35,030 bases of DNA from a virus. Below, piece after piece: positions 9,321 through 35,030 of this stretch. Below the pieces are notes generated by a model. The model was not told the DNA's origin. It made no database searches and worked only from the letters and a program-made list of their open reading frames with translations. Each line of letters opens with the position of its first letter. Position 1 is the stretch's first letter. The translations under genes and the position numbers were made by a program. The stretch lies in IMG/VR virus record IMGVR_UViG_3300014501_000046, positions 1-35,030 of that record. One strand, 5' to 3'.

Positions 9321-9686
9321 TCAAACGCTCTTCAAAGTGACCCGGAAATGCCCGATCGATCCCTTGGCATTCGTCGCCACGTCCTCCACCCGCAAGCTCA
9401 TGGGCGCCGTCTCGTCAACCTGGACGCTCCAGATCTGGCCGGCGGCCGGGACCGTCCCGGCCGAATAGCCCGCGGCGATCAGGGAAGGCAGCAGGATCGA
9501 TCGCAGGACGGTAACCACCGTGGACACCCGCCGCTGGCTCTGATCAGTCCCGAAGCGTTCCAGGGCCTCTGGCTGGGTCGCCAGGCAGCGGACCTGGATC
9601 GCCGGGCCGGTCGTATACGCCACGTCGCCAGATCCGTCGGGGCTGCCGGGCGTGGCGATGGAGAGGATGGAGGCGTTGGCGATCAT
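9321..9686 (-). CDS. Head-tail joining protein (stopper-like)
   Basis: 121 aa. The ATG at 9686 overlaps the stop of the upstream gene (ATGA). The same frame stays open further upstream, but the overlap start fits the operon. Beta-rich sequence without motifs, ending Phe-Arg-Val-Thr-Leu-Lys. Located between the connector region and the gp10-like protein, where a head-closure or stopper protein is expected. Function is by position only. Confidence 0.5.
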   Translation of the reverse strand: MIANASILSIATPGSPDGSGDVAYTTGPAIQVRCLATQPEALERFGTDQSQRRVSTVVTVLRSILLPSLIAAGYSAGTVPAAGQIWSVQVDETAPMSLRVEDVATNAKGSIGHFRVTLKSV

Positions 9687-23761: not shown

Positions 23762-24304
23762 GAGTAAAACTCCATTGGCAACGCCCTTGGTCCAGGGGGA
23801 CCAAGGGGTGATGCATTTGCCGCCACGGTGGCGGCGGTTCGCTAAAAAGGTGTCAGAGTTGGAAGTTTCGTAGTTGCCCAGGGCCGGCGGCACGATTGCC
23901 GCCGGCCCTGCGATCGATTCGCCGTCCCGGCTGTGGTTGGGGCGGCCAACGTGATGCGCGCGATGCGATTTATCGAGGGTGTAACGGGCTTCGAGGGAGT
24001 CGAGGATCGCTTCCCAATCTTGCGGCGAAGCGACCCCGTCGATGCCCCTGCTGATGGCGATCCGTGCCCGAGGTGGCAAAATTTCCACCCTTCGACTGCG
24101 CTCAGGGCAGGCCGGCAAAAAACAGGTCGCCGGGGGCGATGCATGCAACGCCCCCGGCGCCTGAACGGCCTGGTGATGGAGTCGGTTATGAGCCGTTCCA
24201 GCCTCAGAGGCGGCAACCTCCGAAGGGAGGGACAGCCGGCGCAGCTCCGCGCCGGACGCGTTGAAAAAAAGTAGCTCGAATGGAGATGACGGCTGATAGA
24301 ACAT
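23762..24304 (-). CDS. Uncertain ORF upstream of holin-like gene
   Basis: The frame of the holin-like gene stays open upstream to at least the ATG at 24304 (about 180 codons), continuous with it and without stops. Third codon positions remain GC-rich. Part of it (Ala-Arg-Ile-Ala-Ile-Ser-Arg-Gly-Ile-Asp-Gly, then Asp-Trp-Glu-Ala-Ile-Leu-Asp-Ser-Leu-Glu-Ala-Arg) looks protein-like. The middle is a dispersed repeat (24088-24112). The downstream ATG has a better Shine-Dalgarno, so this could be leader. An endolysin would be expected here but no lytic motif is visible. Confidence 0.25.
24069..24112. repeat. Inverted-repeat partner plus dispersed repeat
   Basis: 24069-24090 is 22 bases perfectly inverted at 27281-27302 inside the methyltransferase gene. 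It abuts CCCTTCGACTGCGCTCAGGG, a dispersed sequence type seen in many GC-rich genomes; GTCGAACTTATCGAAGGG at 24412-24429 belongs to the same style. Confidence 0.7.
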
Positions 24305-24513
24305 GCCGCGTCCGGAAACAAACGCGGCCCGGAGGTACACCTTGACCAAACGCTACACCGGCGGGGTCAAGGCCTCAGGGCCAAATCTGCTTTCGTTCGC
24401 TTTATGTCCCGTCGAACTTATCGAAGGGGGCGAGACGGTTCCAACACGGCTCGCTTGATTGACGACGACGACGAACCCTAGCGAGGTCTGCCAGGGCTGT
24501 CAAGGGGGTCGGG
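24305..24513. promoter_or_regulatory. Leader gap of the late operon with CCTTGACC inverted repeat
   Basis: No gene is seen. An exact inverted repeat CCTTGACC / GGTCAAGG (24340-24347 and 24365-24372) flanks a 17-base loop. It lies at the head of the late operon and could be the site of a late activator. The loop holds CGCTACACCGGCGG, repeated at 26152-26165, and CCAACACGGCTC at 24441-24452 recurs at 26137-26148. Confidence 0.4.
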
Positions 24514-24578
24514 AAGAAAAACCCGGCGGTCGAAGAAGAAAAGGGTGTCTGGCCTCACCTCTCCGCGGCACCGCCGGG
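24514..24578 (-). terminator. Intrinsic-type terminator of the repressor operon
   Basis: On the minus strand CCCGGCGGT pairs with ACCGCCGGG over a 39-base loop and is followed by TTTTTC. It starts two bases beyond the stop of the gene cotranscribed with the repressor, so it probably separates the lysogenic operon from the late operon. The loop is longer than usual. Confidence 0.45.
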
Positions 24579-24580
24579 AC

Positions 24581-25027
24581 TTAATCAGCGCGGCGCCAAT
24601 GCGGCGCCACGTAGCTGCCGTCGGCGCGAAAGTATCCTTTGACGTAGACCGTGCCTGCATGAGCCGTGCCTGCCGCGGCCGCGTCGTCGCTGGGCACGGC
24701 GTAAATGTTGTACTTCGGCGGCGTGTAGGCGCTGGCCGGCGCCGGAGGAGTTGCGGGACTTGCGGGAGTCGCAGGGGTTGCCGCCTGATCGGCCGCGCGA
24801 AGGATGATCGCCACCACGGAGATCGCGGCCATCGCGCCCAGCGCGCCGAAGAACCCGGCGGCGAAAGGCCGGGGCTTGGACTGCGGAGCGATGTAGACCA
24901 GCGGGTTGACGGATTGCGAGCGTGTGGCCGATCGCCGCGCGATCACCCGATGCGGCACGTAGGATTGCGCGGCGTTCGCCAGTTGGCTCAGGTCGTCTTG
25001 CCCAGGTTCCTCATTGAAGTCGCTCAT
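24581..25027 (-). CDS. Membrane protein cotranscribed with the repressor
   Basis: 148 aa. The ATG at 25027 overlaps the repressor stop (ATGA) and has AAGGAG seven bases upstream. The N-terminal ~50 residues are polar/basic cytoplasmic, and one transmembrane helix lies at ~54-77 (Ala-Ala-Gly-Phe-Phe-Gly-Ala-Leu-Gly-Ala-Met-Ala-Ala-Ile). Then come a Pro/Ala/Thr linker and a small C-terminal domain (Val-Tyr-Val-Lys-Gly-Tyr-Phe-Arg-Ala-Asp-Gly-Ser-Tyr-Val-Ala-Pro-His) outside. Coupling to the repressor means it is made during lysogeny, so a superinfection-exclusion or host-surface role is plausible. No family recognised. Confidence 0.6.
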   Translation of the reverse strand: MSDFNEEPGQDDLSQLANAAQSYVPHRVIARRSATRSQSVNPLVYIAPQSKPRPFAAGFFGALGAMAAISVVAIILRAADQAATPATPASPATPPAPASAYTPPKYNIYAVPSDDAAAAGTAHAGTVYVKGYFRADGSYVAPHWRRAD

Positions 25028-25782
25028 TTGGCACTCCTTCCTGGTGAAAGAATGGTGACAGGCGTGTATTTCCCCACGACTCGCCCGACGCGGGCGATGT
25101 TCTCGAAGAGCACGTCGAGCGGGGCGTATTTACTGTTGAGAGAGAGCAGGCGGATTTTGCCCTCTCCCACAACGACGACGCGCTTGAAGCACGACTTGCC
25201 GTCTTCGCCGCCGTCGAGCTGGATGAGGGCGTCCTCTCCGTCGTGCAGCTCTTCGCGCGGAACGGGACGCAGGATCACGCACTCGCCGGGCTGGTAGAGC
25301 GGGGTCATGCTGTCTCCGTCGATCTCCAGCGCGAACGCCGACGGGCAGTCCGGCAGTTCGATCGGCAGCCGCCGCACGTCCTCAGGGTCCCGATCAAATG
25401 TGAAACTTTCCACGGCCCCGCCGGCTGTGACCTTGCCCAGGACCGGTACGCCACGATCCTGGCCATCAGTCGCTCTGATCTGAGCCGTTGTTGTACCCGA
25501 TTCCAACCCCTTGAGTCCAAAAGGTTGTTCCCACTCGACAACCCGATCATCGGGTATCCATTTCACGTTGCCGGAATCGAGCTTCTCTAAGTCGCGCACG
25601 CTCACTTTGAGGGCGCGGGCGAGCCACAGCTTAGTGGAGCGTTCCGCCTTGGCCACGGTTCCGGTGGCATAAATCCGCGTGATGACGCGCATGGAAACGC
25701 CAGAGGCGTCGGCCAAGTCCTGCTGGGTATTGAGGCCTGCCAACTGCGTGCGATGTTGCAGCCATTCCAGGAAGCGCGACAC
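25024..25782 (-). CDS. CI/LexA-type prophage repressor (S24 peptidase)
   Basis: 252 aa from a GTG at 25782; no clear Shine-Dalgarno. The N-terminal HTH (Gln-Asp-Leu-Ala-Asp-Ala-Ser-Gly-Val-Ser-Met-Arg-Val-Ile-Thr-Arg, ~19-36) binds operators. The C-terminal S24 domain has the cleavage site Ala120-Gly121, Ser158 in Asp-Gly-Asp-Ser-Met-Thr-Pro, and Lys200 in Ser-Cys-Phe-Lys-Arg. This is the RecA-stimulated autocleaving type, so lysogeny should be SOS-inducible. That differs from Mu, whose repressor is not of this type. It lies divergent to the Cro-like gene, with which it should share operators. Confidence 0.85.
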   Translation of the reverse strand: MSRFLEWLQHRTQLAGLNTQQDLADASGVSMRVITRIYATGTVAKAERSTKLWLARALKVSVRDLEKLDSGNVKWIPDDRVVEWEQPFGLKGLESGTTTAQIRATDGQDRGVPVLGKVTAGGAVESFTFDRDPEDVRRLPIELPDCPSAFALEIDGDSMTPLYQPGECVILRPVPREELHDGEDALIQLDGGEDGKSCFKRVVVVGEGKIRLLSLNSKYAPLDVLFENIARVGRVVGKYTPVTILSPGRSAK

Positions 25783-25893
25783 GCCAAAAGGTTAGCGTTA
25801 GTTCGCGTCTACGCAATCAGATTTTACAGAAAACCAGAAATTCGCGACTTTTTGCGCTTGACGACTAGCCAAGTGGCGGATAATGTCCCGATT
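25783..25893. promoter_or_regulatory. Divergent switch region with early promoter
   Basis: AT-rich compared with its surroundings. Rightward: TTGACG (25858-25863), 17 bases, TAATGT (25881-25886), a near-consensus sigma70-type promoter. Transcription would start about at 25893, i.e. at or next to the ATG at 25894, giving a leaderless mRNA. Leftward: TAAAAT on the minus strand (25821-25826) could be the repressor -10. TTCGCG occurs at 25802-25807 and 25841-25846, and GCGT-CT-ACGC lies next to the first; these may be operators. Confidence 0.55.
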
Positions 25894-26124
25894 ATGCAAT
25901 CACGGAGGCTAGCCACGAGGCGAGTCACGCTTCGGCTGCTTAGGAAGAGCCAAGGGAAAACGCTTCAGCAGGTCGCCACCGAGCTGGGCACGGGGCGCCC
26001 CACGGTGTGCGACTGGGAGCGGGGCAGGCGACGGCCGCGACCGCGGTACATCCCGGCTTACGCGGCGATCCTCGGCGTGTCGCCGCTTGAGCTGGCCCAG
26101 ATGGTGGAGGCGACGGGCAAATGA
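25894..26124 (+). CDS. Cro-like HTH regulator
   Basis: 76 aa from the ATG at 25894; an in-frame GTG at 25873 lies inside the promoter spacer and is unlikely. It is a compact XRE/HTH_3 domain: Gly-Lys-Thr-Leu-Gln-Gln-Val-Ala-Thr-Glu-Leu-Gly-Thr-Gly-Arg-Pro-Thr-Val-Cys-Asp-Trp-Glu-Arg-Gly (about 20-43), followed by the usual Pro and Ala-x-Ile-Leu-Gly-Val-Ser-Pro-Leu-Glu-Leu. First gene of the early operon, divergent from the repressor: the Cro/Ner position. The start appears leaderless. Confidence 0.75.
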   Translation: MQSRRLATRRVTLRLLRKSQGKTLQQVATELGTGRPTVCDWERGRRRPRPRYIPAYAAILGVSPLELAQMVEATGK

Positions 26125-26147
26125 CGGGCGAATGAACCAACACGGCT

Positions 26148-26196
26148 CCCGCGCTACACCGGCGGCCGGCCTCAAAAAGCCGGCCGCCAGCGCGGG
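26148..26196. terminator. Large GC-rich stem-loop after the Cro-like gene
   Basis: CCCGCGCT, five unpaired bases, GGCGGCCGGC, loop CTCAAAAA, GCCGGCCGCC, AGCGCGGG: 18 base pairs in all. It is followed by GGTTTTGGG, a poor T-run, so it may be an attenuator or antitermination control point between the Cro-like gene and the rest of the early operon. Confidence 0.6.
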
Positions 26197-26205
26197 GGTT
26201 TTGGG

Positions 26206-26240
26206 AAATGCTGAATGCTGAATGAGGAATGCTGAATGGG
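26206..26240 (+). repeat. Heptad junction repeat (AATGCTG)
   Basis: AATGCTG AATGCTG AATGAGG AATGCTG AATGGG. The third, variant unit creates GAGGA, the Shine-Dalgarno for the ATG at 26236, which itself lies in the last unit. The repeat thus forms the translation start region of the next gene. Confidence 0.75.
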
Positions 26241-26466
26241 CGTTCGACGGGTCAATGTTGCGGGGGCCAAAGGCGACGTGCTCACTCACGAGCAGATGCG
26301 TGAGCGAGTTGACGGCATCTACGCCAAGGCCGTCGCCAACGGGACCCACAGCGACGGGCCGGCGTTGACCGTGTGCCAGGGATGCCGGCGGTGGGTTGAC
26401 TCCATCTCGTATGTCACGCTCGGCCACAAGCGGCTGTGCAGGGACTGCGACCCAACTCGTGTTTAA
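26236..26466 (+). CDS. Small zinc-ribbon protein
   Basis: 76 aa. Cys47-x-x-Cys50 and Cys68-x-x-Cys71 (Cys-Gln-Gly-Cys, Cys-Arg-Asp-Cys) make a treble-clef/zinc-ribbon site. The N-terminal half is helical with His-Glu-Gln-Met-Arg-Glu-Arg-Val-Asp. The basic C-terminus suggests nucleic acid or protein binding. Second gene of the early operon, downstream of the stem-loop. Possibly a transcription factor or antiterminator; no family recognised. Confidence 0.6.
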   Translation: MGVRRVNVAGAKGDVLTHEQMRERVDGIYAKAVANGTHSDGPALTVCQGCRRWVDSISYVTLGHKRLCRDCDPTRV

Positions 26467-26492
26467 CCGCAATCGATGCGCTGAAGGATGTC

Positions 26493-26903
26493 ATGAGAAA
26501 AGGACCAACTGCAAAGACCTACGTGATCGTCTTCGAGGTCAATGGGTTTTCCGCTGACTCACTGATCGGGAGCGTCCGCGCCGCGCTGTCTGGCGAGGGG
26601 CTGACCACGTCAGGAATCGAGGCGTTCGAAAAGGGGACGGATTCTCGCTCCAAAGCCCTGCAACGGATCAAGTCGGCAAAGACCTACGTGATCGTCTTCG
26701 AGGTCAATGGGTTTTCCGCTGACTCACTGATCGGGAGCGTCCGCGCCGCGCTGTCTGGCGAGGGGCTGACCACCGGGCCGTCAGGAATCGAGGCGTTCGA
26801 AAAGGGGACGGATCCCATCTCTCGCTCCAAAGCCCTGCAACGGATCAAGTCGGCACTGGACCGTATCCGGTCGCTCGACTCTATCAACCCCCGCCGTCGC
26901 TGA
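26493..26903 (+). CDS. Early protein with internal tandem duplication
   Basis: 136 aa from the ATG at 26493 (AAGGA five bases upstream). After Met-Arg-Lys-Gly-Pro-Thr, a ~55-residue unit begins Ala-Lys-Thr-Tyr-Val-Ile-Val-Phe-Glu-Val-Asn-Gly-Phe-Ser-Ala-Asp-Ser-Leu-Ile-Gly, continues with an amphipathic helix and ends Leu-Gln-Arg-Ile-Lys-Ser. It occurs twice, then a short basic tail. The unit looks like a small alpha/beta domain; family unknown. The unduplicated ancestor would be about 80 aa. The second copy carries extra Gly-Pro and Pro-Ile pairs. Whether the two-unit form is real or an assembly product cannot be told. Confidence 0.6.
   Translation: MRKGPTAKTYVIVFEVNGFSADSLIGSVRAALSGEGLTTSGIEAFEKGTDSRSKALQRIKSAKTYVIVFEVNGFSADSLIGSVRAALSGEGLTTGPSGIEAFEKGTDPISRSKALQRIKSALDRIRSLDSINPRRR
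26511..26852 (+). repeat. Two direct repeats of 165 and 177 bp
   Basis: Copy 1 is 26511-26675, copy 2 is 26676-26852. Apart from two 6-bp insertions in copy 2 (CGGGCC and CCCATC), I see no base difference. Both indels keep the reading frame. Identity with in-frame indels but no substitutions is unusual. Confidence 0.9.
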
Positions 26904-26906
26904 TCC

Positions 26907-26925
26907 TCACGTTTTCACGTTTTCG
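26907..26925 (+). repeat. Junction tandem repeat, CACGTTTT type
   Basis: CACGTTTT CACGTTTT C between the duplicated gene and the methyltransferase start, five bases before GATCCC-ATG. Same family as 7621, 18997 and 29252. Confidence 0.7.
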
Positions 26926-26930
26926 ATCCC

Positions 26931-28526
26931 ATGCCCCTCTTTGCCATCCATCCTCTGGCCAACCTGCTCCCGCGGATGACTCCCGGGGAGTTCGGGGCGC
27001 TGGTCGAAGACATCCGGCTGCTGGGATGGTTGCGCGAGCCGATCGTGCTGCTGGAGGGGAAGATCCTGGATGGCCGTCACCGTGCCGACGCTTGCGAGCA
27101 GCTCGGCATCGATCCCGCCACGGTCGATTATGACCCGGCGTGGGGCTCGCCGGTCCGGTATGTGTACAGCAAGGCTGTGCACCGCAACCTGACCGATTCC
27201 CAGAAGGCCGCGGCCGCGGTGCTGATCGCGGAAGAGATCGGCAAGGAAGCGAAGGAACGCTCCGCGGCCAACCTTAAGCAGGGTGGAAATTTTGCCACCT
27301 CGGAGCCACAGAGGGTCCTGGGGAAGCCGGCCGCTCAAACCGTTGAGGCGAAAACGGGCGCGTTGCAATGGCCCCAGCATGCGGGCAAGACCCGGCCGGA
27401 GATTGAAGCCTGGCTGAAGTCGCTGCCGCGCAAGTCGCTCGCCAGCGAAGTGGAAGTTTGCGAGATAGAGCGGAGCCGGCGGCTTGGGACCACCGTGCCG
27501 CCTGTCAAGCGATCGTACCTTGAGATGGTGGCGTTCGTCCTCGATGAGACGTTCGGGCCCAGCAGTGCCGGGCAAAAATCCCGAGACATCGCCGGCACTC
27601 TCTTCGGCGTATCCGGCCGCTATGTCCAGGACGCCAAGCTCGTCTACACGCAGCAACCCAAATTGTTCGCCGACGTGATGGCCGGCACGCTGACCCTCAG
27701 CCGCGCCAAGGCCGAAGTCCGCCGCCACGTCAAGCGGGACGCGCTGGCCAAGGCCGCCAAGGCGCCCGATGACCTCAACGGGAAATGGGAGATCATCCAG
27801 GGCGACTGCGTGGAGAAGATGGAGACGCTGGCCCGGCGGTCATTCAACCTGATCTTCGCTGACCCGCCCTACAACCTCGGCGTTGACTACGGCGACGGGG
27901 AGAAGGCCGACAAGCTCCCGGACGAAGACTTCCTGGCCTGGAGCCGCAAGTGGATCGGCCAGTGCGCCGAGCTGCTCTCGCCGGTGGGGACGATGCTGGT
28001 CCTCATCAATGACGAGTGGGCCGATCATTTTGGGCTGATGCTCCGCGACGCGGGTTTGACACGCCGGGCCTGGATCAAGTGGTATGAGAGCTTCGGGGTG
28101 AACTGCCTCGACAACTTCAACCGCTGCTCTCGCCACCTGTTCTACTGCGTCAAGACGACATCCGCCTTTACGTTCAACGCCGCCGTATTCCACCGCCAGT
28201 CGGACCGGCAAGTGAAATACGCCGACCCGCGGGCCAACCCGCGCGGCAAACTGTGGGACAACGTCTGGGGGATCAACCCGCCGATTCCGCGGCTGGTGGA
28301 CAACGCCGAAGAGCGTCTGCCCGACTTCAAGACTCAGCTCCCTCTGGCCCTGCTGACTCCAATCGTCGAAGGTTTCTCCAATCCCGGAGACGCGGTCCTC
28401 GATCCGTTCAGCGGGAGCGGCACGACAGTCGCCGCCGCGCACCGGACCGGGCGGATCGGAACGGGGATCGAGAAGAACGCGTCGCGGGCCAAGCAGTCGC
28501 GGATTCGCATCAAGGGAGGGCTTTAA
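26931..28526 (+). CDS. ParB-like domain fused to DNA methyltransferase
   Basis: 531 aa, ATG at 26931. Residues ~1-95 are a ParB/Srx-like nuclease-fold domain (Ile-Leu-Asp-Gly-Arg-His-Arg-Ala-Asp-Ala, then Val-His-Arg-Asn-Leu-Thr). A helical linker (~100-280) follows. The C-terminal N6/N4 methyltransferase has motif IV Asp-Pro-Pro-Tyr-Asn (from D311) before motif I-like Asp-Pro-Phe-Ser-Gly-Ser-Gly-Thr-Thr (from D491), the permuted beta-class order. It methylates DNA at unknown sites, perhaps to evade restriction or time replication. No restriction partner is seen. Such fusions are common in phages. A 22-bp block inside is inverted at 24069. Confidence 0.85.
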   Translation: MPLFAIHPLANLLPRMTPGEFGALVEDIRLLGWLREPIVLLEGKILDGRHRADACEQLGIDPATVDYDPAWGSPVRYVYSKAVHRNLTDSQKAAAAVLIAEEIGKEAKERSAANLKQGGNFATSEPQRVLGKPAAQTVEAKTGALQWPQHAGKTRPEIEAWLKSLPRKSLASEVEVCEIERSRRLGTTVPPVKRSYLEMVAFVLDETFGPSSAGQKSRDIAGTLFGVSGRYVQDAKLVYTQQPKLFADVMAGTLTLSRAKAEVRRHVKRDALAKAAKAPDDLNGKWEIIQGDCVEKMETLARRSFNLIFADPPYNLGVDYGDGEKADKLPDEDFLAWSRKWIGQCAELLSPVGTMLVLINDEWADHFGLMLRDAGLTRRAWIKWYESFGVNCLDNFNRCSRHLFYCVKTTSAFTFNAAVFHRQSDRQVKYADPRANPRGKLWDNVWGINPPIPRLVDNAEERLPDFKTQLPLALLTPIVEGFSNPGDAVLDPFSGSGTTVAAAHRTGRIGTGIEKNASRAKQSRIRIKGGL

Positions 28527-28528
28527 TC

Positions 28529-28771
28529 ATGCCTCTCATCCAACTGACCGACGCCGACATGGTCGCCGAGGCCGCCTACGACGTGAAATGCGAGGCGTGG
28601 CCGTCCTGGTCGGTGGACGTTTTCCTCTGCCACCCTGACGCCGCCATGCAGCTCTGCAAGGCGGTCAGGGTGAAGCTGCACCGGCGCAAGCTGACCGACT
28701 TCGAGATCCTCTGGACGCTGGTGAACGCCCGCAAGCGGAGCAAGCTGCCGACCGCGAAAGGGGGACGCTGA
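28529..28771 (+). CDS. Small conserved-looking early protein
   Basis: 80 aa from the ATG at 28529, three bases after the methyltransferase stop, with GGAGGG about ten bases upstream. It opens Met-Pro-Leu-Ile-Gln-Leu-Thr-Asp-Ala-Asp-Met, has Trp-Pro-Ser-Trp and Cys-His, and ends in a basic helix. No family recognised. Its stop overlaps the start of the next gene (ATGTA over TGA), so the three genes are translated as a unit. Confidence 0.55.
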   Translation: MPLIQLTDADMVAEAAYDVKCEAWPSWSVDVFLCHPDAAMQLCKAVRVKLHRRKLTDFEILWTLVNARKRSKLPTAKGGR

Positions 28772-29247
28772 TGTACCGCACGAATCGTTGGGACGGCGTC
28801 GATTGGAGCCGCAGCAACCTCTTTATTGCGGCGTCTCTGGGCGTGCATGTGGGAACGGTCAGCGCCGCCCGGAAGCGGCTGAAAATCCCTCGCCGCAAGA
28901 CCGGCCCAGAGCCGGCCATCTACGAACGCGAACTACCGTTTATCGCGAGCCTGCTGCGCGACGGCATCAAAAAGGTGGAAGTCGCCCGGCGCTACGGGGT
29001 GTCTCCCATGACGCTGCGCAGGCGAATTCGCGGGGTGCCGGGATGCAGCGAGCGGGAGCTGTGCGAGTGGCGGGAATCGCTCCGGGACACGGAGACGCGC
29101 GAGCGGGAGATAGCCGCCGAGCGGGAACGCAAGGCCATCAAGGAATCGCTACGCCGCCGACCCGAGCGGCCCGAATCGCCGTCCGCGCCGCTCCCTGCCC
29201 GCGAGAAGGCGGCGGTCCGCATGCGGGAGTTTTTGGCTTCTATTTGA
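28771..29247 (+). CDS. Double-HTH early regulator
   Basis: 158 aa, ATG at 28771 overlapping the upstream TGA. Two HTH-like segments: about 17-37 (Phe-Ile-Ala-Ala-Ser-Leu-Gly-Val-His-Val-Gly-Thr-Val-Ser-Ala-Ala-Arg) and about 65-87 (Val-Ala-Arg-Arg-Tyr-Gly-Val-Ser-Pro-Met-Thr-Leu-Arg-Arg-Arg). The second half is a long Arg/Glu-rich helix, perhaps a coiled coil. It resembles recombinase-type or transcription-factor HTH proteins without a catalytic domain. A regulator of early or late transcription is likely. Confidence 0.6.
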   Translation: MYRTNRWDGVDWSRSNLFIAASLGVHVGTVSAARKRLKIPRRKTGPEPAIYERELPFIASLLRDGIKKVEVARRYGVSPMTLRRRIRGVPGCSERELCEWRESLRDTETREREIAAERERKAIKESLRRRPERPESPSAPLPAREKAAVRMREFLASI

Positions 29248-29251
29248 GCAA

Positions 29252-29276
29252 TCACGTTTCACGTTTTCACTTTTTC
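29252..29276 (+). repeat. Junction tandem repeat, CACGTTT type
   Basis: CACGTTT CACGTTTT CACTTTTT C, directly followed by AGGAG, the Shine-Dalgarno of the next gene. Confidence 0.7.
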
Positions 29277-29289
29277 AGGAGTCATGCAA

Positions 29290-29925
29290 ATGACCACGCT
29301 GTTAGAGATCGACGGGAGGCCCGCAATGCATTCGGATTGCGGGACTCAGGGCATGATCGTTGGCCAGACCGACGAATACCGCTGTCCGCGGTGCGAGTCG
29401 CTCATCCCCTCCGTGGCGATGCGCCGGGTGGCGCCGGCGGAAGGGCTGGGCCGCGCCGCCGGGCGAGGCTTTGGCTTGCAGGTCTACTGCCAGCACTGCA
29501 ACGCCGGATTCGGCATCGACGCCGGCTACCAGGACGGCCGGGTCGTGCAATACGGGCCGGCGAGCCTGCTCATGGGCGAGTCGATCCGGGAGCTGAAGCA
29601 GCACGTCGGGGAGATGGCCGGCGACATTTCGACCACGCCCGACGACGACGGTCAGCAGAAGCGTCTGCTCGTCGACCTGGCCGAATTGCGCCGCCGCCAC
29701 GTCGAGATGCTGGAGGCCGCGATGGAGATCATCCAGAAGCTGGGCGCCGAGCAGTTCCTAGACCGTGTAGCCGAGGTCCGCGAGCAGATCGCCGCCGGCA
29801 CGTACGAAACCGAAGACAGGCTCGATCAGACCGCCGACGCGATCTTGGACGAACCGGGCCGCTCCCGCGTCCGAAAGACCCAGCCGACCGAAACCCCGGA
29901 CGCGCCCACAACGGAGGGAACGTGA
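29290..29925 (+). CDS. Zinc-ribbon protein with FlgM-like C-terminus
   Basis: 211 aa from the ATG at 29290, which has AGGAG at proper spacing; the ATG at 29284 is too close. Cys32-Pro-Arg-Cys35 and Cys67-Gln-His-Cys70 form a zinc ribbon. A helical middle follows. Residues ~156-188 (Arg-Val-Ala-Glu-Val-Arg-Glu-Gln-Ile-Ala-Ala-Gly-Thr-Tyr-Glu-Thr, then Asp-Arg-Leu-Asp-Gln-Thr-Ala-Asp-Ala-Ile-Leu) match the sigma-binding end of planctomycete-style FlgM anti-sigma factors. The tail is Pro/Thr rich. It could retarget host RNA polymerase. The FlgM match is from recalled pattern, not a search. Confidence 0.6.
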   Translation: MTTLLEIDGRPAMHSDCGTQGMIVGQTDEYRCPRCESLIPSVAMRRVAPAEGLGRAAGRGFGLQVYCQHCNAGFGIDAGYQDGRVVQYGPASLLMGESIRELKQHVGEMAGDISTTPDDDGQQKRLLVDLAELRRRHVEMLEAAMEIIQKLGAEQFLDRVAEVREQIAAGTYETEDRLDQTADAILDEPGRSRVRKTQPTETPDAPTTEGT

Positions 29926-30152
29926 ACCACGACAATCTTGCCCACGCCCTGAACGGCATCGGCCACCGAATGCGCGAGGACCGTGAAGAGCTCGACGCTG
30001 CAGCCGCCCTGTACGCGCTGGCCGACCTGGTGATCGAAACCAAGAAAGCCGCGCCACACAAAGCGGGGCTGACCAGGCTGCTGACCCGCGCCATGGTCCG
30101 ACGCTTCGACGCCGGAACGCCCATCGGCGACCTGGTCCGGGAGGGACTATGA
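29922..30152 (+). CDS. Small helical early protein
   Basis: 76 aa from the GTG at 29922, which overlaps the upstream stop (GTGA) and has GGAGGG upstream. All-helical and charged: Leu-Asn-Gly-Ile-Gly-His-Arg-Met-Arg-Glu-Asp-Arg-Glu-Glu, then Leu-Tyr-Ala-Leu-Ala-Asp-Leu-Val, ending Gly-Asp-Leu-Val-Arg-Glu-Gly-Leu. No family recognised. Operon context: between the FlgM-like gene and the tRNA-like element. Confidence 0.6.
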   Translation: MNHDNLAHALNGIGHRMREDREELDAAAALYALADLVIETKKAAPHKAGLTRLLTRAMVRRFDAGTPIGDLVREGL

Positions 30153-30202
30153 ACCTGTTCCGCCGTGGGCCCGATCCGACCGCCATCTGTGAATGCGATT
30201 GA
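30149..30202 (+). CDS. Possible 17-aa leader peptide before tRNA-like element
   Basis: The ATG overlaps the upstream stop (ATGA) and has GGAGGG upstream, so ribosomes should start here. The peptide ends Cys-Glu-Cys-Asp. It stops six bases before the tRNA-like fold. It may be a leader peptide or just spacer. Confidence 0.35.
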   Translation: MNLFRRGPDPTAICECD

Positions 30203-30208
30203 ACGGCA

Positions 30209-30302
30209 GCCGCGGTGGCGCAGCGGTCAGCGCGCATGCCGGCCACGCTATGAGATTCCCGTGGCAGGCATGAGGTCAGAGGTTCGAGTCCTCTCCGCGG
30301 CA
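30209..30302 (+). tRNA. tRNA-like gene with enlarged anticodon arm
   Basis: The cloverleaf is complete: acceptor GCCGCGG/CCGCGGC with A73, U8, D-arm GCGC-AGCGGTCA-GCGC (A14, G18, G19, A21), 5-bp variable AGGTC, T-arm AGAGG-TTCGAGT-CCTCT. No CCA is coded. But the anticodon stem CATGC/GCATG (30235-30239, 30268-30272) encloses 28 bases instead of 7. These form an extra stem GCCACG/CGTGGC (30242-30247, 30260-30265) with a 12-base loop. No normal anticodon can be assigned. It could be a tRNA with an insertion or intron, a degenerate tRNA, or a tRNA mimic. It ends 22 bases before the transposase start. Confidence 0.7.
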
Positions 30303-30324
30303 TTGCAAATGACCAGGGACGAAA

Positions 30325-32436
30325 ATGACTATGCAACCGTCCACGCCCGCACTTCCCGCCCCCACTACCGTGGCCGCATCGGTCAACATGGCCGGTGCCG
30401 TGTGGATTCCACTGCGCGTAGCGGCGCAAAGGTCGGGCAAGACGGAGCGGCGGCTCGCCCAGATCTGCCACGGCAAGTGGCTGGGCGAGAAGCTGGCCCG
30501 CATGCAGCAGCCCGAGGGCGGCAAGCCGATCTGGTACGTTCACGAGACGGCCGATCCGGCTTTCGCGCGGGTGAAATTCCCGGAACAGATGGCGGCGGAC
30601 TTGTCGAGCCTGAGCCAGGGCGCGCGCGGGAAGGTATTGTGTCGCCTGGGCATCCTGAAGGAGTGGGAAGAACAGGTGAAAGCGGGGTTCAAGCTGGGCT
30701 TCGACAAAGTCCGCACGACTCGGAACTTCCTGCTCAATCTGGAGGCCGGCAAAGGAACAGCCGATGGCCAGGCGGTCCGCATCAGCCTGGCAACCCTCTA
30801 TAACTGGCACACCGCCTACAGCGCCGATGGCCCGATAGGTTTGGTCGATGGCCGCGGGGCCGAGAAGACGGCGCCGGGCAAAGATGATCCGTTCTTGGCC
30901 GAATTCTCCCGGCTCTACCTCGACCAGCGCAAGCGCTCGGTGACCCTGTGTCACCAGATGGTGTCGGAGATTGCCCCGCTGCGCGGCTGGGAGGTTCGCA
31001 GCTACGACCAGGTCAAGCGGTATGTGAGGGCGATCCCTGCCGATGCTCTTTATCTGCATCGGCACGGCGAGAAGGTGTACACCAACATTGTCGAGCCATA
31101 CATCAACCGGGACACGTCGCAGATGCGCGCCAATGAGCAGTGGTGCGGAGACCATCACGTCTTCGATGTTATCGTCAACTGGGACGGCGAGTTGGTGCGC
31201 CCATGGGTGACCGCCTGGCAGGACATGCGTAGCAGGAAGATCGTAGGGCATCACGTCTTCAACGGCGATCCGTGCCAGGACACGATCTTTTCTGCCTTGC
31301 GCCACGCCTGCCATCCCGGCCAGCAGAATTGCGGCGTTCCAGAGGGCGTCTACATCGACAACGGCAAGGATTACGACTGCTACGCCTTGCAGGGGGTCAC
31401 CAAGAAAGAGCGGCACCAGAAGCGAAAGGTGACTGTCGAGTATGATGCGACCTATGTAAAGGGGTTGTGCGCCGCCTTGGGCATCAGCGTAACTCACTGC
31501 GAGAAGTACCACGGTCAATCCAAGCCTATCGAGCGATGGTTTGGCACGCTGGAGGACCGTTTCGGCCGGCGCTGGGACACCTATTGCGGCGGCTCGCCGG
31601 ACAAGAAGCCGGATGACCTGAAATTGCACCTGGAACGCGGCCACGCTCCCACCAAGGAGGAGTTTTGCGCGGCATTCGATGCGTACGTCAGGGACGGATA
31701 CAACGCACACCCGCACACGGGAGACGGGCTGGGCGGGAAAACCCCTGACCAGTGCTTCGCCGAGTCGCTGAACGTGCACGGCAAGCGCGTGGTTGTGCAA
31801 TCGACGCTCGACATCCTGCTCTTGAAGCAGACCCGCATGGTGACGGTGGGGCAGAATGGCGTGCAATACGACGGCCTGTTCTACGGCCAGTACGCGGCGT
31901 GGCGCCCGCAGTGGCTCGGCAAGAAGGTCTACCTGCTGATCGACTCCCGCGACATCTCGCGTGTGATGGTCTGGTCCCCGGATGGGACGGCCCTGGGCTG
32001 GGTGGAATCGAATGAGGCCGTTCCCCATAACGCCAAGGACACCAGCCGGCTCAAAGAGGCCAAGAAGATGAAGGCCCGCGCCAAGCGCGTGGCGGAGGAG
32101 TTTTTCGAGACCGGCCCGCGCCGGCACGAAAGCATCCCGGCACTGATGGCACAGGCAGAAGCGAAGCGCCGAGCCGAGACCGAGGCGGCCAACCCGCCCC
32201 CGGCGGGGCCAAGTTTGATCCCCGTTCGAACGCCACTCGATGGGCAGATCGCGACGTTCCAACGGCAAGAAGAGCGCCGCGTGTTCCGCAAGGCTGTCGG
32301 CGCGCCTGATGACCAGGGAGATCAGGGGCACATCAGCTTGCTAGATGCACTGTCTGGAATCGATGCTCCTGTCCGGCGGCAACCGGACAGGGAGGCAATC
32401 AACCTGATGGACTTTATCAACGGAGGTGACTCGTGA
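30325..32436 (+). CDS. DDE transposase, MuA-like
   Basis: 703 aa, ATG at 30325 with AGGGA five bases upstream. The N-terminal ~240 residues are HTH/DNA-binding regions (Arg-Arg-Leu-Ala-Gln-Ile-Cys and Leu-Ala-Thr-Leu-Tyr-Asn-Trp motifs). The catalytic core has D276 (Trp-Cys-Gly-Asp-His), D345 (Tyr-Ile-Asp-Asn-Gly) and E403 (Ser-Lys-Pro-Ile-Glu-Arg-Trp-Phe). MuA has D269, D336 and E392, so spacing is nearly the same. The C-terminal part has a beta-barrel-like section and an Ala/Arg/Glu-rich helix, then the end that would contact the B protein. It catalyses strand transfer during integration and replicative transposition, binding the end repeats at both phage termini. Confidence 0.92.
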   Translation: MTMQPSTPALPAPTTVAASVNMAGAVWIPLRVAAQRSGKTERRLAQICHGKWLGEKLARMQQPEGGKPIWYVHETADPAFARVKFPEQMAADLSSLSQGARGKVLCRLGILKEWEEQVKAGFKLGFDKVRTTRNFLLNLEAGKGTADGQAVRISLATLYNWHTAYSADGPIGLVDGRGAEKTAPGKDDPFLAEFSRLYLDQRKRSVTLCHQMVSEIAPLRGWEVRSYDQVKRYVRAIPADALYLHRHGEKVYTNIVEPYINRDTSQMRANEQWCGDHHVFDVIVNWDGELVRPWVTAWQDMRSRKIVGHHVFNGDPCQDTIFSALRHACHPGQQNCGVPEGVYIDNGKDYDCYALQGVTKKERHQKRKVTVEYDATYVKGLCAALGISVTHCEKYHGQSKPIERWFGTLEDRFGRRWDTYCGGSPDKKPDDLKLHLERGHAPTKEEFCAAFDAYVRDGYNAHPHTGDGLGGKTPDQCFAESLNVHGKRVVVQSTLDILLLKQTRMVTVGQNGVQYDGLFYGQYAAWRPQWLGKKVYLLIDSRDISRVMVWSPDGTALGWVESNEAVPHNAKDTSRLKEAKKMKARAKRVAEEFFETGPRRHESIPALMAQAEAKRRAETEAANPPPAGPSLIPVRTPLDGQIATFQRQEERRVFRKAVGAPDDQGDQGHISLLDALSGIDAPVRRQPDREAINLMDFINGGDS

Positions 32437-33602
32437 AGATCGCCGGAAGTGAATATGAAGGACGCGGTTTGAGCACCCGATTCAGCCACGGCGGCGAGTG
32501 GGTGGAGAAGCTGGCCGCACAAGCCAAAATAATGGGAGAAGCAAGGATGCTCAGGGACGAACAGCCGCTGACCGAGGAAGTCAGCAAGTCGATTGTGGCG
32601 AGATTCAAGGCGTTCCTGGAACGCACCGGGAAAAGCGCTGCCTGGGCGGCGAGGTCGCTGGGCATATCGCCGGGCACGCTCACGCCGGTGGTCGCGGGTA
32701 ACTATGCAGCGGACGCCGAGCCTCATCTGCGCGCTATTGACAAGTGGCTTGAGTCCCAGCTCATGAAAGAGGCGGCGCCCAAGCCGGCCGGATTTGTGCG
32801 CATCAAGGTGGTAGATCGGATCTACGGCGTGGCCCGCTGGGTACAGCAGAGCGGCTGCATCGGAGTCATCCACGGCCCGGCTGGCATCGGCAAAACTATG
32901 ACGTTGAAGGCGATCCGGTCGGAAACGCCGGGCTGCATCTTTATCTCAATTACCACGGCCGGGCAGAGCAAGCTGTCGGTGTATGAGACGCTCGCCCAGG
33001 CGGTCGGGCTCACTGGGCTCAAACTGACCAGCTTTCAGATAGAAAGAATGCTCGTGGAGAAGCTCAACGAGTCGGGGCGGCTCATTATAGTGGACGAAGT
33101 GCACAAACTAGAGGGTCGCCGCCATGACGAGGCCCTCCATGCCCTCAGAGACCTGCACGACGCCACGGGTTGCCCGATGCTGTGGAGCGGGATGACGAAC
33201 ATCGCCAACTACATCCAGCAGGGTCAGACCAAATGGGAGCCACTCGACCAGCTCGCCAGCCGCATCGGCTTCTGGCTGAACCTCACCGACGCGATCGAAG
33301 CGACGGATGGCGGCAAGGGGGCTTATTCTGAGGCGGATATTCGCAAAATCATCGGCACCTACAAGCTGCGCATCACGCCGGACGGCGAGGCGTGGCTGCA
33401 CGCGCTCGCCAACACGCCTCGGCTGGGCGCTTTGCGGACCATCGACAAGCTGCTGCGCGTGGTAGCCCACGTCTACGCAGACAAAGTGATCACCGCTTCG
33501 TTGCTCCAGTCGGCCCGCATCGAGCAGCTCGGAGCGAGGATGGCAGACAATTACGAGCGGCAGATGGAGAGCTGGAGCGAGCGGCGCGCTGTGGCGGGGT
33601 GA
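32433..33602 (+). CDS. AAA ATPase, MuB-like transposition protein
   Basis: 389 aa from the GTG at 32433, overlapping the transposase stop, with a perfect GGAGGTGA. The N-terminal HTH (about 60-95: Ala-Ala-Trp-Ala-Ala-Arg-Ser-Leu-Gly-Ile-Ser-Pro-Gly-Thr-Leu) is typical of MuB. Walker A is Gly-Pro-Ala-Gly-Ile-Gly-Lys-Thr (148-155). Walker B is Leu-Ile-Ile-Val-Asp-Glu (D221, E222). It uses ATP to bind target DNA, choose insertion sites and stimulate the transposase, keeping the phage from inserting into itself. Longer than MuB (312 aa). Confidence 0.9.
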   Translation: MKIAGSEYEGRGLSTRFSHGGEWVEKLAAQAKIMGEARMLRDEQPLTEEVSKSIVARFKAFLERTGKSAAWAARSLGISPGTLTPVVAGNYAADAEPHLRAIDKWLESQLMKEAAPKPAGFVRIKVVDRIYGVARWVQQSGCIGVIHGPAGIGKTMTLKAIRSETPGCIFISITTAGQSKLSVYETLAQAVGLTGLKLTSFQIERMLVEKLNESGRLIIVDEVHKLEGRRHDEALHALRDLHDATGCPMLWSGMTNIANYIQQGQTKWEPLDQLASRIGFWLNLTDAIEATDGGKGAYSEADIRKIIGTYKLRITPDGEAWLHALANTPRLGALRTIDKLLRVVAHVYADKVITASLLQSARIEQLGARMADNYERQMESWSERRAVAG

Positions 33603-33646
33603 CACGGGCAATGTTTTAACCGCGCAGCGTCAGAACGGAGTCAGAC

Positions 33647-33940
33647 ATGGCTGAGAATTGGATGGCGGTCGAGAGGCCGACCGTGGCGAGGGTGACGCGG
33701 ATCATGGGGTGGGTTGACGGCGACATCTTCGCGGACGCCAAGTGGTATCCCGATCAGGACATGGGAGACCACTGGACGGTGCGGGTCGCCAACATCGTCT
33801 ATTCGCCGTTCTTCGGAACGAGCGCCGAAGAGATGATCGCCTGGGCGCGCGGGCACGGGTGCGATCGCGTGGAAGTGGTGGCCAAAATGGACGTTTACCA
33901 GAGGAAACATGAGCCAGCCGACGCCGCTTGTACCGGGTGA
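33647..33940 (+). CDS. Small early protein of unknown function
   Basis: 97 aa, GGAG six bases upstream of the ATG. Trp-rich N-terminus (Trp-Met-Ala, Trp-Val-Asp-Gly-Asp, Trp-Tyr-Pro) with beta-strand character and a helix around 58-70 (Glu-Glu-Met-Ile-Ala-Trp-Ala-Arg). No family recognised. It follows the MuB-like gene in the early operon; the next small gene starts inside its end. Confidence 0.55.
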   Translation: MAENWMAVERPTVARVTRIMGWVDGDIFADAKWYPDQDMGDHWTVRVANIVYSPFFGTSAEEMIAWARGHGCDRVEVVAKMDVYQRKHEPADAACTG

Positions 33941-34064
33941 TGTGCCGGGCGAATTCACGCCCATCGCGTACTCCGTTACCCAGCAGGGCATCCTCATGAC
34001 AGTTCGTCTGGCCCGCGCTGTCGGCGTAGATGACATCCAAGTCCGCATTTATCCGACAGCTTGA
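33909..34064 (+). CDS. 51-aa early protein
   Basis: 51 aa, GAGG directly upstream of the ATG, overlapping the preceding gene by 32 bases in another frame. It starts Met-Ser-Gln-Pro-Thr-Pro-Leu-Val-Pro-Gly-Asp-Val and then shows two beta-strand-like stretches (Ile-Leu-Met-Thr-Val-Arg-Leu-Ala and Ile-Gln-Val-Arg-Ile-Tyr). Function unknown. Confidence 0.5.
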   Translation: MSQPTPLVPGDVPGEFTPIAYSVTQQGILMTVRLARAVGVDDIQVRIYPTA

Positions 34065-34129
34065 AGTGAAACCCGCTCCCTGTCTCGGTACGGGAATTCT
34101 ACCAGCCGCCACAGCTAGACTATATCAAC

Positions 34130-34486
34130 ATGGTACCAGGACCCACTAAAGGCCAATTGCGAGTCATCCACACCGGCGCCCGCGCGGTCCGGCTGATCGA
34201 CCTGGATGGCAGCGACGCCCGCTACCGCATGATGCTGCGCAGTGTAGGCGGCGTCGAGAGCGCCATCGAGCTGGATAACCGCGGCGTCGAAGATGTGATG
34301 GCTGTGCTGGAGGACATGGGCTTCGACGACCACCCCAGCGGCAGGCGTTACTGGCGAACCAAGATCGAGCGCCGCGGGTCGTGCTGCTGCGAGCGCATGG
34401 CCCACAAGATCCACGCCCTGGCCAAAGAGCCTGGGCAAAGATATGAGCTGGGCGCGCTGCCTCCGCTTCAGCGTCAAGCGGACTAA
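34130..34486 (+). CDS. gemA: GemA/Mu gp16-like protein, first part
   Basis: 118 aa from the ATG at 34130; no clear Shine-Dalgarno. Ile-His-Thr-Gly near residue 13, then Asp-Ala-Arg-Tyr-Arg-Met-Met-Leu-Arg-Ser-Val-Gly-Gly-Val-Glu-Ser-Ala, Leu-Asp-Asn-Arg-Gly-Val-Glu-Asp-Val-Met-Ala-Val-Leu-Glu-Asp-Met-Gly-Phe: the DUF1018/GemA signature. In Mu, gp16 is an early regulator linked to gyrase or DNA relaxation and late gene activation. The normal protein is about 165-185 aa; here the C-terminal third lies in the +1 frame (see next entry). Confidence 0.72.
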   Translation: MVPGPTKGQLRVIHTGARAVRLIDLDGSDARYRMMLRSVGGVESAIELDNRGVEDVMAVLEDMGFDDHPSGRRYWRTKIERRGSCCCERMAHKIHALAKEPGQRYELGALPPLQRQAD

Positions 34487-34613
34487 TATTGTCGAGGCGC
34501 TCTACCCGAAAGAGGCGTGGAACCTGATCGAGATGTTGAAGGCGGTCGGCGAGCGGGGCCAGCCTGACGCAACGGCGGGGCATTCTGGGAGTGGTCAGTT
34601 GGGAGGCCATTGA
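34443..34613 (+). CDS. C-terminal part of GemA-like protein in +1 frame
   Basis: 56 aa from the ATG at 34443, overlapping the first part in the +1 frame. The text Met-Ser-Trp-Ala-Arg, then Asn-Ile-Val-Glu-Ala-Leu-Tyr-Pro-Lys-Glu-Ala-Trp-Asn-Leu-Ile-Glu-Met-Leu-Lys, reads like the expected GemA C-terminus, including its helix. Joining at about 34430 gives a 161-residue protein. Either one gene with a +1 frameshift, an indel, or a separate reinitiated protein. Confidence 0.5.
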   Translation: MSWARCLRFSVKRTNIVEALYPKEAWNLIEMLKAVGERGQPDATAGHSGSGQLGGH

Positions 34614-34750
34614 CTGCGTTGGAGAGAATGTTCGTTGTCGTCGCGAGCATCCCATTGCTCGCCATGCCCTTCCGATTTCCGATGCTGATCAAACGCTCAT
34701 CAATTACTATAAGTCGAGCATTTAGGTTTGCCTGCGCCGCGCCGCCGCAA
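34614..34750. promoter_or_regulatory. Non-coding right-end region with hairpin
   Basis: No gene is seen. A hairpin GCGAGCA-TCCCAT-TGCTCGC lies at 34643-34662, after the last early gene; it lacks a T-run and may be a weak terminator. An AT-rich stretch follows at about 34680-34725, just before the end repeats. Confidence 0.4.
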
Positions 34751-34900
34751 CGGAAGTTTTTCTAAAGTCGCCACGCCTCGCTCGCCAATCCCGCCTTTTT
34801 CTAATCTCGCAACTTTTTGCCTGGCATGACGTAACTCTTGGCGCCGCATGCCCTAGCCGTTCATCCATATCCAGCCGTGTTTTTCTAAGTCCACCTGCCC
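34751..34900. repeat. Right end of transposable phage, transposase-binding repeats
   Basis: Three TTTCTAA cores, at about 34759, 34797 and 34882, all in one orientation and inverted relative to the two at the left end. The second one (TTTTTCTAATCTCGC) best matches the inner left site. The same orientation and a shared flank (GGCAAAAA reversed, 34814-34822) identify the right end. Terminal CA could be 34825-34826 or one near 34900. The exact end is unresolved. Confidence 0.65.
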
Positions 34901-34911
34901 GCCCACACCGG

Positions 34912-35030
34912 ATGCAAACGCCGTCGCCAACTCCCGCCCTTGACGTGGGCGCGTTGGTCGACGCATTGCTCCAGGGGAAGCTGACGGCAGAAGATGCCGC
35001 ACGGCTGGCCGCGGCCGGCGATGAGATGAT
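34912..35030 (+). CDS. Partial ORF leaving the window, host or last phage gene
   Basis: The ATG at 34912 opens a frame to the window end (39 full codons). The product is Ala/Leu rich: Val-Gly-Ala-Leu-Val-Asp-Ala-Leu-Leu-Gln-Gly-Lys-Leu-Thr, then Ala-Ala-Arg-Leu-Ala-Ala-Ala-Gly-Asp-Glu. The Shine-Dalgarno is weak. It begins just outside the right-end repeats, so it may be the first host gene or a fusion with it. Confidence 0.4.
   Translation, partial: MQTPSPTPALDVGALVDALLQGKLTAEDAARLAAAGDEM

Follow-up and report, generated by a model that had tools for sequence, protein, structure and literature searches.

Transfer RNA folds are known to serve as processing signals: in the tRNA punctuation of mitochondrial transcripts and in mascRNA of MALAT1, folds cut by RNase P and RNase Z set the ends of RNAs. 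Self-cleaving ribozymes near the genes of Mu-like phages are also known. In bacteria, the hammerhead and twister ribozymes have their strongest association with the genes of Mu-like phages, for a reason given as unknown (PMC10085705), and a hammerhead is located 13 nt upstream of the start of an early helicase gene in a halovirus (PMC3088659). In the literature that we searched, mostly outside subscription journals, no description was found of phage tRNAs with enlarged anticodon arms, of an anticodon-less tRNA body in the slot before a phage transposase, or of a tRNA-type processing signal at a phage transposase.

Here, we analyzed a whole stretch of 35,030 nt from the virus record IMGVR_UViG_3300014501_000046 (the window), in which a tRNA-like element lies in the early operon of a divergent Mu-like phage of 35 kb, just before the transposase gene. 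Its position is like that of the Mu-like phage ribozymes (hammerhead II, pistol, and twister), which lie on the sense strand of the early operon, often just before the transposase, but the element has no ribozyme core and its cleavage would need host enzymes. As in mitochondria and mascRNA, a tRNA fold is placed in or between transcripts; unlike the element, those signals have an anticodon arm of the ordinary type or are small tRNA-like domains.

The Mu-like phage and its early operon

The window was assigned to the Mu-like (transposable) phages by the presence of MuA and MuB, a divergent S24 repressor, relatives of GemA and gp27, and terminal repeat sites. The DDE residues of the transposase (D276, D345, and E403) occupy invariant alignment columns. 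The following features were identified:

150 and 171 (-); 34757, 34796, and 34880 (+): TTTCTAA end-type sites, close to the two ends and inverted relative to each other
25024-25782 (-): S24-type repressor (PF00717), divergent from the early operon
26931-28526 (+): DNA methyltransferase of the early operon (phrog_67; PF01555)
28771-29247 (+): HTH protein of the early operon (phrog_664; HTH_23)
30149-30202 (+): 17-aa ORF, overlapping the preceding stop and stopping 6 nt short of the tRNA-like element
30209-30302 (+): tRNA-like element, 94 nt, no encoded CCA (ARAGORN; Rfam RF00005; fold)
30303-30324 (+): 22-nt leader with a Shine-Dalgarno-like AGGGA at 30315-30319 (sequence)
30325-32436 (+): MuA-type transposase (phrog_310, E 2e-99; PF02914, DDE_2, and PF09299, Mu-transpos_C)
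32433-33602 (+): MuB-like DNA transposition protein, an ATPase (phrog_296; AAA_22 and TniB)
34130-34486: GemA-like gene
Strand opposite to the early operon: Mu gp27-like gene

The early genes form a same-strand run (+) from 26436 to 33602, in which the gaps range from -4 to 44 nt with one exception. This sole large gap of 122 nt (30203-30324) is made up of 6 nt, the 94-nt element, and the 22 nt that separate its 3' end from the transposase ATG at 30325, in agreement with the early-operon site and the 22-base distance given by an earlier reading of this DNA from its sequence only. A search of 26800-34800 revealed no promoter-like site, and terminator-like matches in the early region were at the chance level. 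Additionally, a tandem duplication is present at 26511-26855 of the window (blocks of 98, 36, and 35 nt with 100% identity and spacings of 165-177 nt), and a perfect 24-nt inverted repeat pair (24068-24091 and 27280-27303, 3.2 kb apart) flanks the repressor and the early control region.

A tRNA body with an enlarged anticodon arm

ARAGORN identified a single gene in the whole window, at exactly 30209-30302 (+), and labeled it 'tRNA-???'. The same bases matched Rfam RF00005 over model positions 1-71 with 56.8 bits against a gathering threshold of 29 (E 7.3e-10), 27 bits above that threshold. The parts of the element, all on the plus strand, are as follows:

30209-30215: 5' strand of the acceptor stem, GCCGCGG, pairing with 30295-30301 at 7 of 7 positions (sequence)
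30218-30233: D arm, GCGC-AGCGGUCA-GCGC, with A14, G15, G18-G19, and A21 (sequence and RF00005 match)
30235-30272: enlarged anticodon arm, consisting of a 6-bp outer stem, a G/A mismatch, a 6-bp inner stem, and a 12-nt loop (fold)
30235-30240/30267-30272: outer stem of the arm, CAUGCC/GGCAUG, 6 bp
30241 and 30266: mismatch of the arm, G opposite A, 1x1
30242-30247/30260-30265: inner stem of the arm, GCCACG/CGUGGC, 6 bp
30248-30259: terminal loop of the arm, CUAUGAGAUUCC, 12 nt
30278-30294: T arm, AGAGG-UUCGAGU-CCUCU (sequence and RF00005 match)
30295-30302: 3' strand of the acceptor stem, CCGCGGC, and A73 (sequence)

The element also has U8 and G26 and a variable loop of AGGUC (G46 and C48), and its tRNA body is far beyond chance. 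Direct reading bore out the cloverleaf landmarks of the sequence-only reading (U8, A14, G18-G19, the T-loop, the 7-bp acceptor stem, and A73), and the covariance model (56.8 bits) and ARAGORN (the same 94 nt) agree with them. The element thus shares the acceptor, D, and T arms, the variable loop, the signature bases, and A73 with canonical bacterial tRNA (RF00005), from which it differs by an arm of 6 bp, G/A, 6 bp, and a 12-nt loop. It has no ordinary anticodon because this arm is two stems capped by the 12-nt loop; lacking a 7-nt anticodon loop, U33, and an anticodon, it does not qualify as a decoding tRNA. Counted with a canonical 5-bp anticodon stem, its loop is 28 nt, holding the 6-bp stem and the 12-base loop as first described, and the RF00005 alignment puts 27 nt at the anticodon loop. 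An ARAGORN scan of the window for tmRNA, in which a tRNA-like domain is combined with a tag ORF, was negative.

In shuffled 28-nt loops, a 6-bp stem as near to the loop base was found in 2.4%, and therefore the arm alone is no proof of selection. The isolated RNA is predicted to fold into the cloverleaf (-47.7 kcal/mol, z -2.67), whereas the minimum predicted for the element plus about 60 nt at either end is a rival fold with a broken acceptor stem (z 0.21); the long arm is kept in both predictions. This qualifies the earlier remark that the fold is seen directly. Since the folding program ignores tertiary contacts, translation, and co-transcriptional folding, the flanked result is a caution and not a refutation. 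The complement of the loop had no match of at least 9 nt in the window. The inner hairpin was also considered as a dispersed repeat, and this was rejected: the only second copy, in the structural-gene half (9619-9656), is at the chance rate.

Related loci and other tRNA-like RNAs

The DNA near the element had no match among phage records, and a strict D-arm pattern had none in the viral contigs. Searches by transposase alone or terminase alone yielded no relatives among the viral contigs, and neither did transposase alone among the genome contigs. The transposase alignments took in proteins of 25-38% identity (loci L009-L088 and L350-L428), the nearest being L350 (38%) and L351-L355 (32-34%). 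None of these aligned loci, the nearest included, has a recognized tRNA in the transposase slot, and a homologue close enough for a conservation test of the element was not found in these searches. A tRNA-Arg call in L354 was dropped, as its whole record has no Rfam tRNA match and the call lies in an apparent coding sequence.

The Mu-like relatives often have a self-cleaving ribozyme (hammerhead II, pistol, or twister) directly before the transposase. A hammerhead-II model built from Rfam-confirmed examples gave 50 matches (E < 1e-8) spread over 30 related loci, each of them on the same strand as the transposase, and three further loci contained 7 more matches, so that all hammerheads (57 of 57) are in the sense orientation. 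Among the 78 loci with an intact 5' flank, 18 have a hammerhead or pistol whose end lies no more than 150 nt upstream of the first start usable for the transposase, and the distance is commonly 12-25 nt; in three additional loci, a hammerhead ends 14, 25, and 51 nt before this start. The slot of L014 is occupied by a pistol, and twister-P1 matches lie in the same slot of L036 (44.5 bits, E 1.5e-6) and L026 (56.8 bits, E 4e-10), both scoring under the curated cut-off. A twister-core pattern matched on the sense strand in 42 of 43 cases, some of them probably by chance. Ribozymes also occur at other gene junctions of the related loci, and many loci have none. In the window, Rfam gave no ribozyme match at 24300-35030 (E <= 1), so there is no ribozyme core at the element, and the hammerhead model scored only at the chance level in the rest of the window. 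In L087 (2540-2696), a hammerhead is preceded, at a distance of about 20 nt, by a mini tRNA-like structure, and a second hammerhead directly precedes the transposase. L014 also has a sub-threshold group I intron match (2280-2708 (-), 29.7 bits, E 0.0012), which runs antisense to the transposase.

Other Mu-like phages contain tRNA-like RNAs in their early regions. L090 (38 kb, GC 63%, transposase phrog_310, E 1.7e-81), for which a search for close relatives returned L090 alone, has a tRNA body of 101 nt (43.4 bits) that is like the element in its intact body, its GUGGCGCAG D arm, its enlarged hairpin arm, and its site at an early-operon junction on the strand of the early genes. It differs in sequence and has a 4-bp outer stem and an interrupted inner stem; it starts at the stop codon of one early gene, ends about 39 nt before the next, and, instead of preceding the transposase, is located about 2.7 kb downstream of the MuB-like gene. 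An AUG within the loops was considered as a start codon or motif common to the window element and the L090 element, but it was seen in these two cases only. At an early-operon junction of L409 (5271-5342), 9 nt after one gene and 38 nt before the next, there is a tRNA-Met-like gene with a CAU anticodon in a 7-nt loop, C33 instead of U33, an initiator-like D arm, and a U1-U72 mismatch. Five Mu-like phages have in common a small tRNA-like RNA, consisting of an acceptor, a T arm, and one hairpin, about 3 kb after the transposase:

L056, 7716-7786: small tRNA-like RNA, early region
L062, 7757-7833: small tRNA-like RNA, early region
L064, 8078-8154: small tRNA-like RNA, early region
L067, 7774-7850: small tRNA-like RNA, early region
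L069, 7731-7808: small tRNA-like RNA, early region

Those of L064 and L067 have a weak Rfam likeness to mascRNA (25 bits), and in that of L069 the hairpin stem is swapped for a different paired stem with the loop AGUUGUGA retained.

Viral contigs were also scanned for tRNA bodies with an over-long distance from the D to the T arm. At least 110 bodies had at least 6 acceptor and at least 4 T pairs, and at least 61 had no normal anticodon arm and at least 4 bp closing an enlarged one; the window element is included in both counts. Among the 61 listed, U8 and the D-loop GG are present in all, A73 is the commonest base at its position, CCA is encoded in 15, and 15 have, within 60 nt downstream, a Shine-Dalgarno sequence and the beginning of an ORF that is 40 codons or longer. 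The search pattern demanded D and T motifs and partly favored the D-loop GG, so the conservation of these motifs is not independent evidence. Of the 50 expanded-arm records listed, L090 is the only one with a convincing Mu-type transposase, L268 having weak matches only. A common transposase link for the viral expanded-arm tRNAs was therefore rejected, and, if these tRNAs form a class at all, it belongs to viruses and is not specific to Mu-like phages. Some of these bodies may be intron tRNAs or decaying tRNAs. A stricter GTGGCGCAG pattern, which 7 of the listed viral bodies match, the window included, was run on the cellular genomes of 84,980 species and gave 36 well-formed bodies, of which 34 were archaeal, as expected for introns, and 2 were bacterial. 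As to individual arms, L218 has a 15-bp inner stem with a G/A mismatch like that of the window element, and L268 has an uninterrupted arm of 15 bp. In L259 and L106, an enlarged-arm tRNA body lies 14 nt before a thymidylate synthase-like gene and 17 nt before an HNH endonuclease, respectively.

Proposed role and rival readings

We tentatively propose, with slightly less than even confidence, that the element is a tRNA-body processing module placed before the transposase, with its arm turned into a non-decoding hairpin and host RNase P and RNase Z making the cuts. The tRNA body would have been kept for its elbow and acceptor domain. The early-operon transcript would run through the element. Host RNase P would cleave it at 30209, and RNase Z, or whatever 3' tRNA-processing route the host uses, would cleave it after 30302, the latter site being predicted from known tRNA processing. 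The cuts would release a stable tRNA-like RNA of 94 nt and might affect transposase expression. The remaining transposase-MuB mRNA would begin with the 22-nt leader and its own ribosome-binding site; since the AGGGA lies 5 nt upstream of ATG30325, the message would be self-sufficient. Host enzymes would thus act in the slot that ribozymes occupy in Mu-like relatives, and the arm would be free to vary because nothing decodes.

As read from the bases, the parts recognized by RNase P, RNase Z, and the CCA enzyme are complete and the decoding part is gone, which argues for the cutting module. The only large gap of a tight operon in which no promoter-like site was found, the ribozyme slot of the relatives, and the junction tRNAs of L090 and L409 suggest the same, and the sense-strand ribozymes lend indirect support to the earlier proposal of RNase P and RNase Z processing before the transposase, in which cleavage itself remains a prediction. 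On the other side, no homologue has the element at the same place and the L090 element does not precede a transposase, the flanked minimum is predicted to disrupt the acceptor stem, and cutting alone would not need a 13-bp arm. Furthermore, most listed viral expanded-arm tRNAs lie outside Mu-like phages, and only the 15 of 61 noted above have a ribosome-binding site and ORF start downstream.

In the main rival, a serious reading that we consider somewhat unlikely, the RNA set free would be the functional product: a stable tRNA scaffold that acts as a small RNA, or whose hairpin serves as a decoy or sponge, for example for an anticodon nuclease or some other host factor that binds tRNA. The arm is well formed and enlarged, not merely lost, and because nearly all of the roughly 60 listed viral enlarged-arm bodies are in phages without a Mu-type transposase, a trans-acting role would explain this wider set better than operon cutting does. 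The wider viral set favors such a product more than the position of the element does. For mimicry, however, there is no anticodon-like 7-nt loop; no target is known; the loop complement has no long match in the window; and the position before the transposase and the slot ribozymes of the relatives are left unexplained. Decay of a former decoding tRNA gene after a small insertion in its anticodon loop would fit the lack of a homologue demonstrating conservation, the ordinary look of a body with A73 and G1-C72, and the frequency of nested 6-bp stems in shuffled loops. Nevertheless, all pairs of the acceptor (7), D (4), and T (5) stems are intact, as are the bases for tertiary contacts, the inner stem is perfect with a single G/A mismatch beside it, and L090 has the same kind of arm independently. 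With every stem and signature base intact, decay, which the sequence-only reading had listed among its alternatives, looks unlikely.

That reading had also offered an intron-containing tRNA, in which splicing would give a normal anticodon loop. On paper, a loop like that of Ala-GGC, CUGGCAG, remains when 21 nt are excised between positions 32 and 33, and most cellular matches to the same pattern are intron tRNAs. Archaeal intron-containing tRNAs likewise have their extra nucleotides within the anticodon arm, but the junction here is a continuous helix with a 1x1 mismatch and not a bulge-helix-bulge of two 3-nt bulges around a 4-bp helix, and the genes present are those of a Mu-like phage of bacteria. 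To our knowledge, bacteria have no protein-type tRNA splicing. The tRNA introns of bacteria splice themselves and greatly exceed 21 nt in length. Unlike a group I intron-containing tRNA, the element has only 21 extra nt and no intron core, and no Rfam intron match was found in 24300-35030 (E <= 1); an intron is scarcely credible here. It is also very improbable that the feature works at the DNA level, with the inverted repeat 30235-30272 serving as an operator or transposition enhancer in a tRNA fossil. A near-perfect inverted repeat does adjoin the transposase gene, but outside this arm the cloverleaf is intact and has a tRNA-level score, the inner arm motif recurs once in the window (9619-9656, chance rate), and the TTTCTAA end-type sites lie at the prophage ends and not at the element.

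Beyond this locus, viruses of bacteria could possibly have an undescribed class of non-decoding RNAs in which a complete tRNA body carries an unrelated hairpin where the anticodon arm would be, and some of those in Mu-like phages could be host-enzyme-dependent equivalents of ribozymes at early-operon junctions, the transposase junction included; we regard this as a conjecture with the balance moderately against it. If a tRNA body can fill the ribozyme slot, the shared property would be the cutting of the message at a junction and not ribozyme chemistry. Ribozyme cleavage yields a 5'-OH end and RNase Z a 5'-phosphate end. If the cutting module is real, the question of why ribozymes gather at Mu-like genes becomes testable by module swapping. 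The element also suggests that the engineered 'tRNA scaffold' has a natural counterpart, and it draws attention to many viral tRNA calls that are unable to decode and ought to be left out when codon-usage helpers are counted. In Streptomyces sp. NRRL WC-3618 (L298), a tRNA-Pro-like gene has an anticodon arm and variable loop that are apparently duplicated in tandem (CTTGACTGGGGGTCAAGGGGT twice).
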